NCBI GenBank assembly: GCA_025056215.1
Contig: JANWWC010000004.1
Location: 186,001 to 250,000 of the forward strand
Length of the DNA stretch: 64,000 nucleotides
Direction of reading: 5' to 3'
Source of the DNA: Cytophagales bacterium
GTDB taxonomy: Bacteria > Bacteroidota > Bacteroidia > Cytophagales > Flammeovirgaceae
The notes beneath the pieces are model-generated. The model had not been told where the DNA came from and made no database searches. It was given only the letters and a program-made list of their open reading frames with translations. The translations under genes and the position numbers were made by a program. Below are positions 6,945 through 61,804 of the stretch, in pieces (position 1 is the first letter of the stretch; each line of letters starts with the position of its first letter).

Positions 6945-6959
6945 GAAATAAGAACTGAA

Positions 6960-6986
6960 GCCTGCTTTAAAAAAGCGGGCTTTTTT
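6960..6986 (+). terminator. Rho-independent terminator of the tonB-like gene
   Basis: Nine-base stem (6960-6968 with 6972-6980, one G-U pair), short loop, then TTTTTT at 6981-6986. It lies 15 bases past the stop codon. Confidence 0.85.
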
Positions 6987-6987
6987 G

Positions 6988-7590
6988 TTTCAATAAGTTA
7001 GTACGAAACTTTGTATTTTGAGAAGTGTTGATTTTTTGAGGGTTGTATTTTTTAAATCTTTAAGTTTTGACTCAATTGTTAATTTTGTTTCGGTTTTGTA
7101 ACTAAAAGATAAGCATTTCCCTTCAGCGTCATGTGTTGGAAGCCCTTCTATTAGCGAAGGCAAATGCTTGGCACTTGTTTATTTCTAGCACAATTGAATA
7201 GAATAACTAAAAGTTATGAGAGTCTACCTCTCAAACAGATGTTTGAACGATGCAATCGTACGTTGTTATGACATCATATTGTCAAAAATTTCAAATAATT
7301 TCATTTCTTATTTCCATTTTTATGTCCAACGCTCGAACTCACATAAAAATAATTGATCGCTAAAGGTTTTCACAATTCTTTATTTTTCAAACTTTGAATT
7401 CGTGTACACAAATTATAAGTGCATGAAATCATAACCAAATAGGTTTACAGAGAGCGCGTGATGGAGGATTTTCTAATTTTGCTCAGAAACTTATCGAAGC
7501 TTTTCTGACAACTACAAAACTTAAAATAGTATTTTCTCCAAAAATAAACCTCATCTGTTTTTTGTTATCTGTTGCATTCATAGCTGATCA
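6988..7590. other. gene-free stretch between tonB-like gene and miaE
   Basis: About 600 bases with no ORF that resembles a known protein. On the minus strand a frame stays open for about 60 codons (about 7175 to 6990) but has no convincing start and no recognisable family. An imperfect inverted repeat sits at 7111-7169. It may be decayed coding sequence. Confidence 0.5.
7111..7169. repeat. imperfect inverted repeat, 14-base arms
   Basis: Arms 7111-7124 and 7156-7169 are complementary at 13 of 14 positions around a 31-base spacer. No T-tract follows, so it is not an obvious terminator. Its role is unknown. Confidence 0.6.
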
Positions 7591-18086: not shown

Positions 18087-18135
18087 TGAAATCTTGACTC
18101 AAGGTTTTTCTCGGACTATTAGAGAACCCAAATTT

Positions 18136-18931
18136 TTATTCAAAAATAATAGTCTTATTGTGATGAACAAATACTTGATTGTTGAGAACTAATTTAATGG
18201 CTTTGATAGAATGAGTTTTTCGATATCTTTACCTGCTTGCTCCATATCGCGCCAATTAAGTTAGGTGTTGTTAATCGGAATTACATCTTGAACGATGCTA
18301 GGTTCTTCTTTTGTAACAAATTAGACAGTAGCTCCTATGATTTTAACTTCTCTTTCGAAAGCTTACTAGGGATTAGCGCCTATAAAATCAGGAAAAACGA
18401 ATGGTGAATGTTGATAATTCGATAAGAAAACCTACTGAAAGATGATAGAATGCGCATATGTTTTGCTAAAATTTAAGTATTCAAGTTTGAGAGATTCGCA
18501 CACCTCTCGATAGACCTTGATGCGAAATAGAGTGAAAAAGGCATGCCAAATTTGTTAGTAGGTTCTTCTACATCAGGATGATAGGCAACAACACCCAAAA
18601 TTTGAGCATTTAGTTCATCATACAGATGTTTTAGCAACAAATCGCTTCCAGCGCGATATGCTTTAGTAGTTAAGTAGCAGCTCACTTTTTATGGAGGCGC
18701 ACTAAGCGAATGTGAGCCTTAGCAGGCAGTATGTTTCGCAAGCGCAACATAATTTTTTTCAAATTAATATCTTAAGTAGTTCTCATAAAAAACGAGAACT
18801 ACGTTTTTTTACAAACTCATCATTTTTGAGGATATTCAAATCATTCTCGTACAGCAACCTGTAATGTTGTGCACCAATTCTTTTTCATCAGAGCAGTTTA
18901 TCAAAATACGGGCTTAAGAATGATTATCTAT
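18136..18931 (-). pseudogene. purU: decayed formyltetrahydrofolate deformylase gene
   Basis: Reading the minus strand and switching frame recovers a full-length PurU. In order: an N-terminal ACT segment (ILINCSDEKELVHNITG, LYENDLNI), ILPAKAHIRLV, SDLLLKHLYDELNAQI, YHPDVEE, FGMPF, LAKHMRILS, IINIHHSF, FIGANP, VKIIGAT, QDVIPINNT, DMEQAGKDIEKLILS and the tail VLNNQVFVHHNKTIIFE. At least five in-frame stops and four frameshifts interrupt it. PurU hydrolyses 10-formyl-THF to formate and THF, feeding PurT and balancing folates. The extent (about 265 codons) matches the 280-residue enzyme, so decay was by point changes and small indels, not deletion. Confidence 0.9.
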
Positions 18932-18956
18932 ATTTCAAAATTCTCTTGGCTCAATC

Positions 18957-19757
18957 TTAATCGAGTTCTATTTCGGGAGTTGATTTAATGCTTTTTTTGA
19001 GAATAGATTTTTTAGCCGGCTTGGTTTCTTCTACAACATCAATTACATCGGCTAAAATCCTTCCGCAATGTTCACAGACAATAATTTTTTTCTTTTCTTT
19101 AATATCTGCCTGACGCTGAGGGGGAACCATATTAAAACAACCTCCACAAGCGTTTCTCGTCACAACTACGACAGCTAATCCGTTAGAAGAATTTTTGCGG
19201 ATGCGCATATAAGAAGTATAAAGGCGCTCATCAATTTGTTTCACGCGTTTTTCGCGCTCTTTAAAGAGTTTATCGGCTTCTACTTGGTTTTCTTCTAAAA
19301 TAGCTTTGAGTTCTTTTTGTTTTAGGTCAAGGTCTTTTCGACGTTCCTCGATTTGAGCAGTAAGGCTCTCGATTTGAGTTTTTTTGGCTTCAATCTGATT
19401 GCGGTCTTCTTTTATTTTTTTGTTATAAAGTTCTATATCGAGTTTTTGAGATTCTATTTCTTTGTTGATGGCATCGTACTCTCGGTTATTTTTTACATCC
19501 ATTAACTGGGTTTCATACTTTTTGATGAGCTGTTCGGCGTATTTTATGCCTTCTTTGCGGTCGCTGATGTTCTTTTCTAAATGAGCAATTTCATCTTGGA
19601 AGCGCTTTAAGCGTGTTTCTAATTGAACTATACTATCTTCTAGGTCGCGTACTTCTTCGGGTAAATCTCCTTTTATTTTTTCAATTTCGTCCAACTTACT
19701 ATCAATCTGTTGGAGTTTCATCAGAGCATCTAACTTTTGAGCAATTGTTGTTTCCAT
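18957..19757 (-). CDS. coiled-coil protein with C-terminal C4 zinc ribbon
   Basis: 266 residues. Residues 10-180 form an almost unbroken charged coiled coil. The C-terminal zinc ribbon has Cys204-x-x-Cys207 and Cys228-x-x-Cys231. The TRNACGGCFNMVPPQ pattern is the signature of the C4-type zinc-ribbon family (DUF164, CT398-like). Structures of relatives show a long helical hairpin with the ribbon at one end; the function is unsettled, with links to flagellar/secretion or RNA-associated complexes in other bacteria. Monocistronic here, directly upstream (in map order) of the purU remnant. Confidence 0.9.
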   Translation of the reverse strand: METTIAQKLDALMKLQQIDSKLDEIEKIKGDLPEEVRDLEDSIVQLETRLKRFQDEIAHLEKNISDRKEGIKYAEQLIKKYETQLMDVKNNREYDAINKEIESQKLDIELYNKKIKEDRNQIEAKKTQIESLTAQIEERRKDLDLKQKELKAILEENQVEADKLFKEREKRVKQIDERLYTSYMRIRKNSSNGLAVVVVTRNACGGCFNMVPPQRQADIKEKKKIIVCEHCGRILADVIDVVEETKPAKKSILKKSIKSTPEIELD

Positions 19758-24823: not shown

Positions 24824-24946
24824 AACGAACTCAGTAAGAAAATTTGATTTACCCTTTATTTCGAGCGCTTTTTTTGCAATCTACACAATTTTTCAAAACA
24901 AAACCTTATTCAGATTGTTCTTTTAAAAATAAAAAGTTATGTTAGT

Positions 24947-25132
24947 ATGATAAAGTGGTTTACCAAAAGAACTCAAAAAGAGAAACTGCAAGAAAAATAT
25001 GAAAAACTACTCGCGGAATCTTACAAACTTTCGACTATCGACCGAAAAGCCTCTGATTTGAAGCGTGCAGAGGCAGAAGAAGTAGCGCGTCAGATTGAGC
25101 AACTTACAGGCAATCAATCTCCTAAGCGTTGA
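24947..25132 (+). CDS. small Lacal_2735-family protein
   Basis: 61 residues: MIKWFTKRT at the N-terminus, then an amphipathic, highly charged helix (KLQEKYEKLLAESYKLS, TIDRKASDLKRAEAEEV). This is the conserved pattern of the Lacal_2735 family, which is small and largely confined to Bacteroidota; no function is known. The gene is divergent from the NTT fusion and its last 19 bases overlap the 3' end of the M28 peptidase gene on the other strand. Confidence 0.82.
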   Translation: MIKWFTKRTQKEKLQEKYEKLLAESYKLSTIDRKASDLKRAEAEEVARQIEQLTGNQSPKR

Positions 25133-27365: not shown

Positions 27366-27404
27366 TGCAAATCAGCCTTATAAACTTTTCAAAAGAATTT
27401 AAAC

Positions 27405-27434
27405 TAAAAGTAAGGAAAAGAAACTTTTTGCAAA
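27405..27434 (-). promoter_or_regulatory. candidate promoter for dprA
   Basis: Minus-strand TTTG (27434-27431), an 18-base spacer, and TACTTTTA (27412-27405), one mismatch to TAnnTTTG. The start codon is 40 bases away. Confidence 0.45.
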
Positions 27435-27910
27435 ACTGGTTGTAAAATTTTTAGGATTTTTAGAATAGATAATCCACTCAGTTCCCTTTCTTTTTCTCGT
27501 TTGTGAACTTGAAAAGCTAAGTTTTGTTTTATGCGTTGTATCGGTTTAGTTTGAATGCAATTTTTCCTATGAGTGTGCTTCATATTGCTTTTACTATACT
27601 TTTTTCATGTTAAGGAATTGCTGATAGGATTTATTCCGATTGATTTTGTAGGAAGGTTGGGTGTTGGAGTCTCGAAATAAACGCTTATGGGAATGTATTG
27701 CAATATGGATGTTTTAAAAACGCTAGAAGCACTTTTTTCTCAAAGGTCAAAGTTGGCGCTGTATAATCTCAGAGTGTACGAGATTGTTCATTAATAAACA
27801 CCTTTGGAAATTTAATAACAGAAACTAATTAATATTTGCGCTATTAAACAATTTTAGGAGCGATTTGCTTACATGATTTTGTGCAATTATACGCTTTTGG
27901 GATAAGAGCT
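27435..27910. other. gene-free stretch between dprA and yhcH
   Basis: About 475 bases without an intact gene. Plus-strand fragments look coding-like (a hydrophobic run near 27530-27610, then short open pieces to 27795) but are broken by stops and match no family I know. It could be gene decay; nothing else is visible. Confidence 0.45.
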
Positions 27911-32746: not shown

Positions 32747-32975
32747 AGATTGAGCGTTCGGGAAGGATCTACAGAAGGGTTAAATGCAAGCCATACCATT
32801 ATTAGGTTCATCGCTATCTTTCTGACGAAGGTCATAGCACAAAAAACTAAGTAGGGGAAGCCAAGTTTATCCTAGTTTGAAAAGAATTACTTGTTAAAAT
32901 TTATTCGATGTCTACGAAAAAAATTTCTTAAAATTGTATGAAGCATTTTTAAAGTAAAACCAAAAGAAATAAAGC

Positions 32976-35291: not shown

Positions 35292-35377
35292 AACAAAAAA
35301 ATTATACAAAATAAGTAAAAATTTGTAGTATTTTCAATTTCCATGTTTATATTAGCAACTGAAAACCACAACATCAT

Positions 35378-35407
35378 AAAAATAAAAAGTCAGTTCAAAG
35401 AACTGAC
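35378..35407 (-). terminator. Rho-independent terminator (minus strand)
   Basis: Perfect 8-base stem (35389-35396 with 35400-35407) with a 3-base loop. On the minus strand it is followed by TTTTTATTTTT (35388-35378). It is 167 bases past the stop of the small protein at 35574; the plus strand has no T-tract after it. Confidence 0.75.
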
Positions 35408-35573
35408 CCTTTACAAACCACAAAATTTAAACTACAACAATCAAATATAGGCTTATTAACGTATTTTCTTGTTAAAAAGTTTTACAATTGCTTTTCTAGT
35501 TTCAGGACAATTATTACAACGCGCCTGTCAATTTGTTGTTTCTAAAAAAAAAATTTTAACAAAATTTAATGTT

Positions 35574-46149: not shown

Positions 46150-46183
46150 CTTTGTTCAAATTTAATGTTAAACAATTCATATC

Positions 46184-46378
46184 TTAGGCTAAAAGCATAG
46201 CCTTAACAGTTTTTTCGTTCGTTTTATCAACATAAGTAGTATGTACGAGTCTACGTTTGCGTTTGGTAGATTTTTTTGTCAGGATATGGTTTTTGTAAGC
46301 ATGTTTTCTTTTTACTCGTCCTGTTGCAGTAATTCCAAAACGTTTTTTTGCGGACGATTTTGTTTTCATCTTAGGCAT
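46184..46378 (-). CDS. rpmI: 50S ribosomal protein L35
   Basis: 64 residues, highly basic: [20 protein letters not shown] and the late [15 protein letters not shown] segment are diagnostic of L35. First gene of the rpmI-rplT pair. Upstream comes the ssrA terminator rather than infC, so the pair must start from a promoter in 46379-46475 or by read-through. No leader structure was worked out. Confidence 0.97.
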
Positions 46379-46475
46379 TTCTGAAACGCTTTTAGTGTTA
46401 AATATTCTTTTAAGAGATGAGCCACAAAGCTATCTGATTCAATAGAAAAACTCAAATAATACTCAACTTTCTTTT

Positions 46476-46520
46476 GCAAAAACAAAAACGTCAGATTTGT
46501 TACACAACAAATCCGACGCT
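46476..46520 (-). terminator. Rho-independent terminator of ssrA
   Basis: Perfectly paired 15-base stem (46520-46506 with 46501-46487, two G-U pairs), four-base loop, followed on the minus strand by a T-rich run (46486-46476). It is ten bases beyond the tmRNA 3' end. Confidence 0.88.
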
Positions 46521-46529
46521 AAAAATTTG

Positions 46530-46927
46530 TGGAGTCGCGGGGAATTGAACCCCGGTCCGGAGAAGGAAACTGAAAAGCCTTCTACATGCTTAGTTTCCGC
46601 TTCATTGTCGGGCTAGACAGGAGGGAAACGTCCAATCTTCGCCTTAGCTCGCGCTAGTACTTGCTGCCGACTTGCGAGCGCTGTGACAGCAGACCTGATC
46701 AATTCGACACCGCTGAACCTTGCTGCATCAGGTAACAACAAGAGCGATGTGGCTGTGGAATATCTTTTTATTCCATTAGCAATTTCCCCTCTCTAGGCGG
46801 AAATTACGCAGCCATGGCGTATGATTCTTCGCCATTTATTGTTGAGCGCAGTTTTCAAAGGTGTAGCACTCCTCACCTTGCATGCTTACGCTTCCAATCT
46901 CTCAACCCGTCAAATCCGGTCGACCCC
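46530..46927 (-). ncRNA. ssrA: transfer-messenger RNA (tmRNA)
   Basis: About 398 bases. The 5' end GGGGTCGACCGGATTTGACGG and the 3' end with a T-arm (GGGGTTCAATTCCCC) and CGACTCC form the tRNA-like acceptor: GGGGTCG pairs with CGACTCC, one G-U pair. CCA is not encoded. The mRNA-like part, minus strand 46833-46807, reads GEESYAMAA and ends at TAA (46806-46804); the codon before the Gly is Asn. With SmpB it frees stalled ribosomes and tags the product. The tag ending AA is normal, and its sequence fits Cytophagales relatives from memory. A strong terminator follows. Confidence 0.95.
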
Positions 46928-46970
46928 AGATTTTGTTGCGAATATAAAAACGGTATTTAAAAATGAAAGG

Positions 46971-49896: not shown

Positions 49897-50050
49897 GGTA
49901 AATAAAAGATGCTTTAATAAGTTAAAAAAATATTACTCTCGTATACTTGAAAAGTTAAAAAAAGTTTCTTTTTTTTCTAAAAAAATGTAAAAAATAAGTT
50001 TTGTTGATGTCTGCCAAGTTTTTCTTATTATTTTTTCATTAGAAGAAACA

Positions 50051-50082
50051 TTTGGAATTTTCTTTTTGAAATTATATGTTTG
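50051..50082 (+). promoter_or_regulatory. Bacteroidota-type promoter for the SNF2 helicase gene
   Basis: TTTG at 50051-50054, a 20-base spacer and TATGTTTG at 50075-50082, both elements exact. The start codon is 72 bases downstream. Confidence 0.6.
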
Positions 50083-50154
50083 AACTTATGATTTTTTTAA
50101 AGAAAGAACCTTTCTAGGGAGAAGAGTACGAAGTTTCGAGAGCCATCCAAATTT

Positions 50155-60478: not shown

Positions 60479-61372
60479 GGAAAGCAGATTTTTTGGTTAA
60501 TTACATTTTTTCTCTTATCAAGAATGCTTATTTATAAAACTTCCTTATGATTCAGATTTTTTAGTAGGCACATCACAACTTCAAATCAATGCAGCCCGAT
60601 TTTGTTTCTTTTCTTAGTGTAATGAATCAAAGGCTTTTTTGATTTACTAAAAATGGCTTCAATCGTTAATTTGAAAATCATCGGGTTTGAAAAACATTTC
60701 TTTTTGGCAAAAAAATTAATCGAACAACTTCCAGACAAAATTTTCGCGGTCGTTTGTAAAGAAATGGCTTTAATTTTAATTCTGTCTATCTTTGTTCTGA
60801 AATCAAATCCGGGGCAGGTCAAGTATATAGCGGTTTTCAAAAGGTTTAAGTTGGGTATGTTTTAAATTCTTATTTTTTTGATTACGAACAACCTATTTAC
60901 GCTTGCAAAATTATAATCGATGTTTCATCGCTATTTGTATGATTTTTCGAAGCGTTTTTCTTTTTTCTTTATTTTTCTTTTCTGTTCATAATAACTTTGT
61001 ATTTTCATAAGGATAGATTTAGCGAAATTTTTCTTTCGTTACAAAGAGAATCTTTGGTTTTTGAGTTGTTCTGCTGTAGGAAACTCTTTTTCTCGATATT
61101 TAGAACACCAAAACAGCACAATTGAATTTTTTCCAATTAACAAATTAGACAAATGAATTTTATGATTTTTGACAAGTTTCTTTGCTTCTCTGGCTAAATT
61201 GGTAGCTTTGGAAATCGAAAAGAAGTAACTTTATTCCTCCAAAAATGTCTATTTTTTTCGCTGCAGTAAGTTCATCGTTTAAATGAATTGTTTGCAAATT
61301 CAATTGAAAATTCCATTTTTTCGAAGAATTATCACCACCTGCATAATGATTTGAAGATTATTGATGCATTCA
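60479..61372. other. gene-free stretch with coding-like remnants
   Basis: About 890 bases without an intact gene. On the plus strand, 60653-60865 is open for 70 codons and its middle (FLAKKLIEQLPDKIFAVV) vaguely recalls the L7/L12 C-terminal helices, though this is weak. On the minus strand, about 61330-61050, short open pieces in different frames (HYAGGDNSSKKWNFQL, then NLAREAKKLVKNH and GKNSIVLFWCSKYREKEF) read like decayed protein. None could be identified. Confidence 0.4.
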
Positions 61373-61804
61373 TTACCAATATTTTAGTTCCATTGTAATT
61401 TTTACGTTGCTGTTGAGAAAAATTTTAGCATCTTGAAACGAGGGAGGTCCTAAGATTGCCTTTGCATTATTAGAGAATCCGTAACCTTCTTTAGGAACTC
61501 CAATCAGATTCAAATCAAAACGATTGTTGCTGTTTTCATCGTGAAAAATAGCGATAGCGTAATTATCTTCTGGAAGTTCTGGTAGCTCTATAAGAATAGA
61601 AGAAGACTTTACGGCGTAGCTCTCTGCAAAGACTGCTTTTTGATAATCGCTTGGGAAGCCGTTAGGTGAGTTAAAAACAATAAGCCTTAGATATCCTCTT
61701 GCAGAGGAGAGATTGGGAATGTAAATTGAAAGTTTGTGCTTGGGCGGATTTGCTTTTATTGACCAACAGAACAATACAAACAATATTGATAATATTTTTC
61801 TCAT
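61373..61804 (-). CDS. secreted DUF2141 protein
   Basis: 143 residues with a signal peptide (cleavage near IKA-N). The DUF2141 signature is clear: ARGYLRLIVFN, the AIAIFHDENSNNRFDLN segment, GVPKEGYGFSNN and LGPPSFQDA. The family is a small beta-sandwich, periplasmic or secreted, common in Bacteroidota and Proteobacteria, and without assigned function. It lies 36 bases behind the SpoIIE phosphatase gene on the same strand and could be co-transcribed. Confidence 0.9.
   Translation of the reverse strand: MRKILSILFVLFCWSIKANPPKHKLSIYIPNLSSARGYLRLIVFNSPNGFPSDYQKAVFAESYAVKSSSILIELPELPEDNYAIAIFHDENSNNRFDLNLIGVPKEGYGFSNNAKAILGPPSFQDAKIFLNSNVKITMELKYW

Follow-up and report, generated by a model that had tools for sequence, protein, structure and literature searches.

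A decayed formyltetrahydrofolate deformylase gene (purU) between a zinc-ribbon gene and mrdA in a Cytophagales bacterium

The DNA between mrdA and a zinc-ribbon gene in this genome is almost certainly a dead purU, the middle member of a minus-strand run of zinc-ribbon gene, purU and mrdA, which has lost its function and drifted since. The run lies within a 64,000-nucleotide window (C12:186001–250000; positions below count from its first base) of a draft assembly of 2,828,928 bases in 17 contigs, 99.52% complete. The zinc-ribbon gene is the upstream neighbour of the remnant, and mrdA the downstream one, 52 bases from the remnant's end. The longest minus-strand frame listed in the gap between them has 70 codons; the remnant spans ~96% of normal PurU length, with stops and frameshifts throughout (Table 1).

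Table 1. The purU remnant, its neighbours and genes recognised in other gaps of the window
Feature	Position	Strand	Basis and remarks
Decayed purU (formyltetrahydrofolate deformylase), type 2 branch	18139..18907	-	frameshift-aware profile alignment, HMM pieces
mrdA (penicillin-binding protein 2), open, 625 codons	16209..18086	-	TIGR03423 468.4 bits, over cut-off
Coiled-coil zinc-ribbon protein, open, 266 codons	18957..19757	-	CdsZ-like; NF047363 80.8 bits, under cut-off of 275
Small open gene, Lacal_2735 family (DUF6435)	24947-25113	+	gap 24824-25113
Ribosomal protein L35 frame, beside tmRNA	within 46150-46525	-	Pfam scan
tmRNA gene, tag peptide ending AMAA	46527-46927	-	gap 46150-46970

Homology was measured with two profiles, one of the 27 intact PurU proteins over cut-off from 57 relatives (290 positions) and one of the 13 closest of these, all of type 2 (283 positions). 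The frameshift-aware search that the initial annotation had proposed gave a PurU match over nearly the whole length: against the 27-protein profile the minus strand of 18090–18957 scored 312.7. Controls scored far lower, at 27.2 for the plus strand of the same interval, at a mean of 24.6 (sd 3.0, maximum 37.1) for 200 dinucleotide-preserving shuffles, and at 37.2 for the best tile of the window without overlap with the purU locus. The path through this profile takes in positions 12–290 of 290, over the coordinates in Table 1, and that through the type-2 profile positions 11–283 of 283, PurU N-terminal part included. The initial annotation's account of a near full-length purU pseudogene on the minus strand, its blocks in order, is thus confirmed; its coordinates (18136–18931) were right within ~25 bases, and its length estimate of about 95% was of the right size.

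In-frame aligned codons number 244 (86% of the type-2 profile), and 129 of them (53%) are identical to the intact PurU L018; intact type-2 proteins share 53–98% identity with L018. The PurU family model TIGR00655 matched two separate pieces of the locus (E 3.8e-15 and 2.3e-13), both with stops inside. Two of the three read-through frames matched TIGR00655 and PRK06027, the best single frame reaching at most 74.4 bits against a TIGR00655 cut-off of 285.95. Cas2 matches in one frame (E 0.0063 and 0.0097) were under cut-off and are taken as chance. The search for near-DNA relatives of the remnant returned one plasmid record only, a Mesorhizobium purU aligned over 96 query bases at 75% identity, which was of no use.

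The remnant shares with PurU (TIGR00655, EC 3.5.1.10) the order of conserved blocks, the length, the C-terminal motif and the INIHHS active-site segment, but unlike PurU it is untranslatable and has lost its catalytic aspartate segment. A formyltransferase segment is common to PurU and PurN, the GAR formyltransferase (TIGR00639); the remnant differs from PurN in also carrying the PurU N-terminal part, and an open PurN-like gene lies elsewhere in the genome.

The remnant scores 350–506 against each of the 13 type 2 PurU and 190–264 against each of the 14 of type 1, and the tree places it inside the type-2 branch, with support of 1.000 for the split between types; its sister within that branch is weakly supported (0.775). 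Because the tree took in PurU sequences only, it tells the type and not the family. Two PurU types are present within this one order, and even within the family: among 17 same-family relatives, 12 have type 1, two have type 2 (G004, G009) and three have none over cut-off (G003, G006, G007).

The 27-protein profile at a shift penalty of 10 gave six in-frame stops and eight shifts, the type-2 profile at a penalty of 8 two stops and twelve shifts; lesions total 14 under either setting, the split between stops and shifts depending on profile and penalty. The initial annotation's count, at least five stops and four frameshifts, was therefore of the right size. With 2–6 stops and 8–12 shifts, no open reading frame for a functional enzyme is left. 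The catalytic residues of PurU are an asparagine, a histidine and an aspartate. The remnant keeps the INIHHS segment. Intact PurU carries its catalytic aspartate in L-D-E-G-P; the stretch of the remnant that aligns there is shortened and contains no aspartate. PMC3261824 also names the histidine and the aspartate as catalytic. The final dozen codons are free of stops and shifts.

Sequence constraint on the remnant is relaxed. Of 77 aligned columns invariant in the 13 intact type-2 relatives, it keeps 61 and changes 16. In a leave-one-out control each intact type-2 protein kept 96–100% of invariant positions, the 100% rows being flattered by several relatives that are near-duplicates. On the assumption that the 16 changes are neutral and that a single change alters the residue in three cases out of four, they correspond to ~0.10 neutral substitutions per site (0.06–0.17 for rough hand-set bounds of 0.13 and 0.31). 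The remnant's tree branch is 0.74 long, against 0.42 for the nearest tip. Its G+C at codon positions 1–3 (0.46, 0.29, 0.31) still resembles that of mrdA (0.52, 0.37, 0.32) and of the zinc-ribbon gene (0.52, 0.25, 0.32); since, in addition, an identity of 53% still matches the lowest values among intact proteins, the remnant is probably not ancient. That inactivation was fairly recent, as first proposed from the length, is unproven in view of the changed invariant positions, the substitution estimate and the 14 lesions; near full length means merely that there has been no large deletion so far.

We considered whether a non-coding function preserves the remnant, part of it, particularly the 3' end, serving as promoter or leader of mrdA. 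One match to TTG-N19-TAnnTTTG, a Bacteroidota promoter consensus, lies on the minus strand at 18170–18141, 55 bases before mrdA; mononucleotide shuffles of the gap lead one to expect 0.06 matches each. However, the match lies within codons of the conserved C-terminal motif, and among the ends of 27 intact purU genes two carry the motif's second half, one of these the full motif. The motif also occurs nine times per strand in the window, a sigma-70-type scan gave four sites against 3.0 expected, and terminator-like sites numbered one against 0.6 expected. A regulatory role is accordingly unlikely; were it true, a cell-shape gene would be regulated from within a fossil gene. Less plausible still, and very doubtful, is that a shortened product is made and used, such as that of the 70-codon GTG frame at 18473–18685: this frame is open, but it stops short of the INIHHS active-site segment, the rest of PurU has to be read in other frames, and decayed genes are expected to retain open stretches as long as this. 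That the gene is in truth intact and was missequenced or misassembled is scarcely credible, though the assembly is a draft: 14 lesions within 770 bases would all have to be errors, both neighbours are open, and errors would account neither for the 16 changed residues among the 77 invariant ones nor for the missing catalytic aspartate segment.

The arrangement of zinc-ribbon gene, purU and mrdA is not shared by the 27 relatives that have purU, and the neighbourhood lends no extra support to a dead purU. Searching by tblastn with the mrdA, zinc-ribbon, PAS and thioesterase proteins matched none of the 27 intact purU loci within up to 1.5 kb on each side (less at L007, L016 and L024). A separate contig scan with mrdA returned ten loci, at 44–45% identity. 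The zinc-ribbon protein itself was matched in 57 of the 58 genomes searched, own included, and its smallest distance from purU among relatives, by coordinates, is 5.7 kb (G025).

No intact purU was found elsewhere in the genome with TIGR00655, in agreement with the loss of a single-copy gene; the two other matches are the PurN-like gene and Fmt. The PurN-like gene is open and scores 138.1 bits against TIGR00639, under the cut-off of 150.1, and this is its best family, the next being Fmt at 72.2. Fmt itself is present (243.8 bits, over cut-off), as are GcvT and FolD, both over cut-off. No PurT was over cut-off in the genome; of the sub-cut-off purT matches the best, the only one typed, is PurK (TIGR01161, 366.6 bits, over cut-off). 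Formate-THF ligase had no match in the genome. Thus, of the three genes besides purU for which the initial annotation had suggested a search, a PurN-like one was found; no PurT reached its cut-off, and formate-THF ligase gave no match. Its proposal that loss of PurU affects formate supply finds no backing here, those last two being the formate users searched for. In E. coli PurU supplies formate to PurT, as described in PMC3261824, which also mentions a role for E. coli PurU in regulating folate levels and suggests one for archaea; PMC10197868 ties PurU to folate pool homeostasis.

A survey of the order covered 58 genomes, 57 relatives (G001–G057) and our own, with no same-genus genome among them. 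PurU was over cut-off in 27 of the 57 relatives and absent at that level from 30, a few of these less than 90% complete. Sub-cut-off TIGR00655 matches in G033, G047 and others have stops inside, and may be either PurN read through upstream or remnants. PurT was over cut-off in just one of the 58 genomes (G021), itself without PurU over cut-off. Dependence on PurN is therefore probably of long standing and not a consequence of purU loss, and the initial annotation's suggestion that the loss could imply reliance on PurN or on imported purines is not supported. PurN dependence seems to be the rule in the order, with or without PurU. Formate-THF ligase was over cut-off in 21 of the 57 relatives: in none of the 13 type-2 genomes, in 10 of the 14 type-1 genomes (nine of the 10 from one genus, a comparison confounded by relatedness) and in 11 of the 30 without PurU over cut-off. 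The genome studied here is 2.83 Mb, against 5.4–9.5 Mb in 16 of the 17 same-family genomes and 3.0 Mb in the exception; its small size may point to genome reduction in the lineage.

These observations suggest how the gene could have been lost. With GcvT and FolD present and formate-THF ligase not found, methylene-THF can serve as the source of 10-formyl-THF, which PurN and Fmt would then consume. Because no PurT that needs formate was found, PurU would have done no more than act as a valve for the folate pool, and the cell could have managed without it; its loss was presumably tolerated for that reason. The gene would then have decayed in place, and the remnant probably persists solely because deletion has yet to remove it.

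We asked whether other gaps in the window also hold decaying genes, as the initial annotation had generalised. An ORF-based list gave nine gaps of at least 180 bases, the purU gap included, and the read-through frames of gaps other than 32747–32975, 35292–35573 and 49897–50154 were scanned with Pfam and NCBIfam. Coverage was the minus strand with Pfam only for 46150–46526, six frames with Pfam and five with NCBIfam for 27366–27910, and six frames with Pfam and the small open frame alone with NCBIfam for 24824–25113. No second case emerged from three further gaps: 6945–7590, 27366–27910 and 60479–61372 contain no convincing decayed gene by Pfam and NCBIfam. This test is of limited sensitivity: the purU remnant was seen by NCBIfam at 1.1e-20 and by Pfam only at E 0.0086, and remnants of greater age or lower conservation may therefore have escaped it.

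The 646-base gap at 6945–7590 gave two weak and mutually inconsistent family matches, probably by chance. A decayed MNIO/HvfB-type gene (E 0.0017) was rejected there, as its frame also gave a match to an unrelated family (E 0.0028); the MNIO/HvfB-type family was matched in only two of 38 genomes, and not in our own. No recognised protein or RNA family was found in 60479–61372 (894 bases), and an adjoining 143-codon gene (61373–61804, minus strand) had matches in 12 of the 18 genomes examined for it, ours among them. Further gaps contain recognised genes (Table 1), among them the Lacal_2735-family gene, of a kind easily overlooked by ORF length filters.

Dead purU resembles other unitary bacterial pseudogenes, in which a single-copy gene decays between intact neighbours, and we saw nothing unusual about it; none of the results spoke against its being a pseudogene. 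Since many related bacteria also seem to be without purU, it is a genuine fossil gene of an ordinary sort, and not a sign of unusual metabolism. Among the papers listed on formyltetrahydrofolate deformylase and pseudogenes, none appears to concern such a loss, and a whole-word search found none on a purU pseudogene in Bacteroidetes. It is a new case of a well-known kind, the pseudogene itself being ordinary. The remnant fills an annotation gap, and shows that decay was how this lineage lost purU. Because none of the 27 genomes with PurU has PurT over cut-off, PurU is unlikely to act as a supplier of formate for PurT in this order, in keeping with the part in folate-level regulation raised in PMC3261824.
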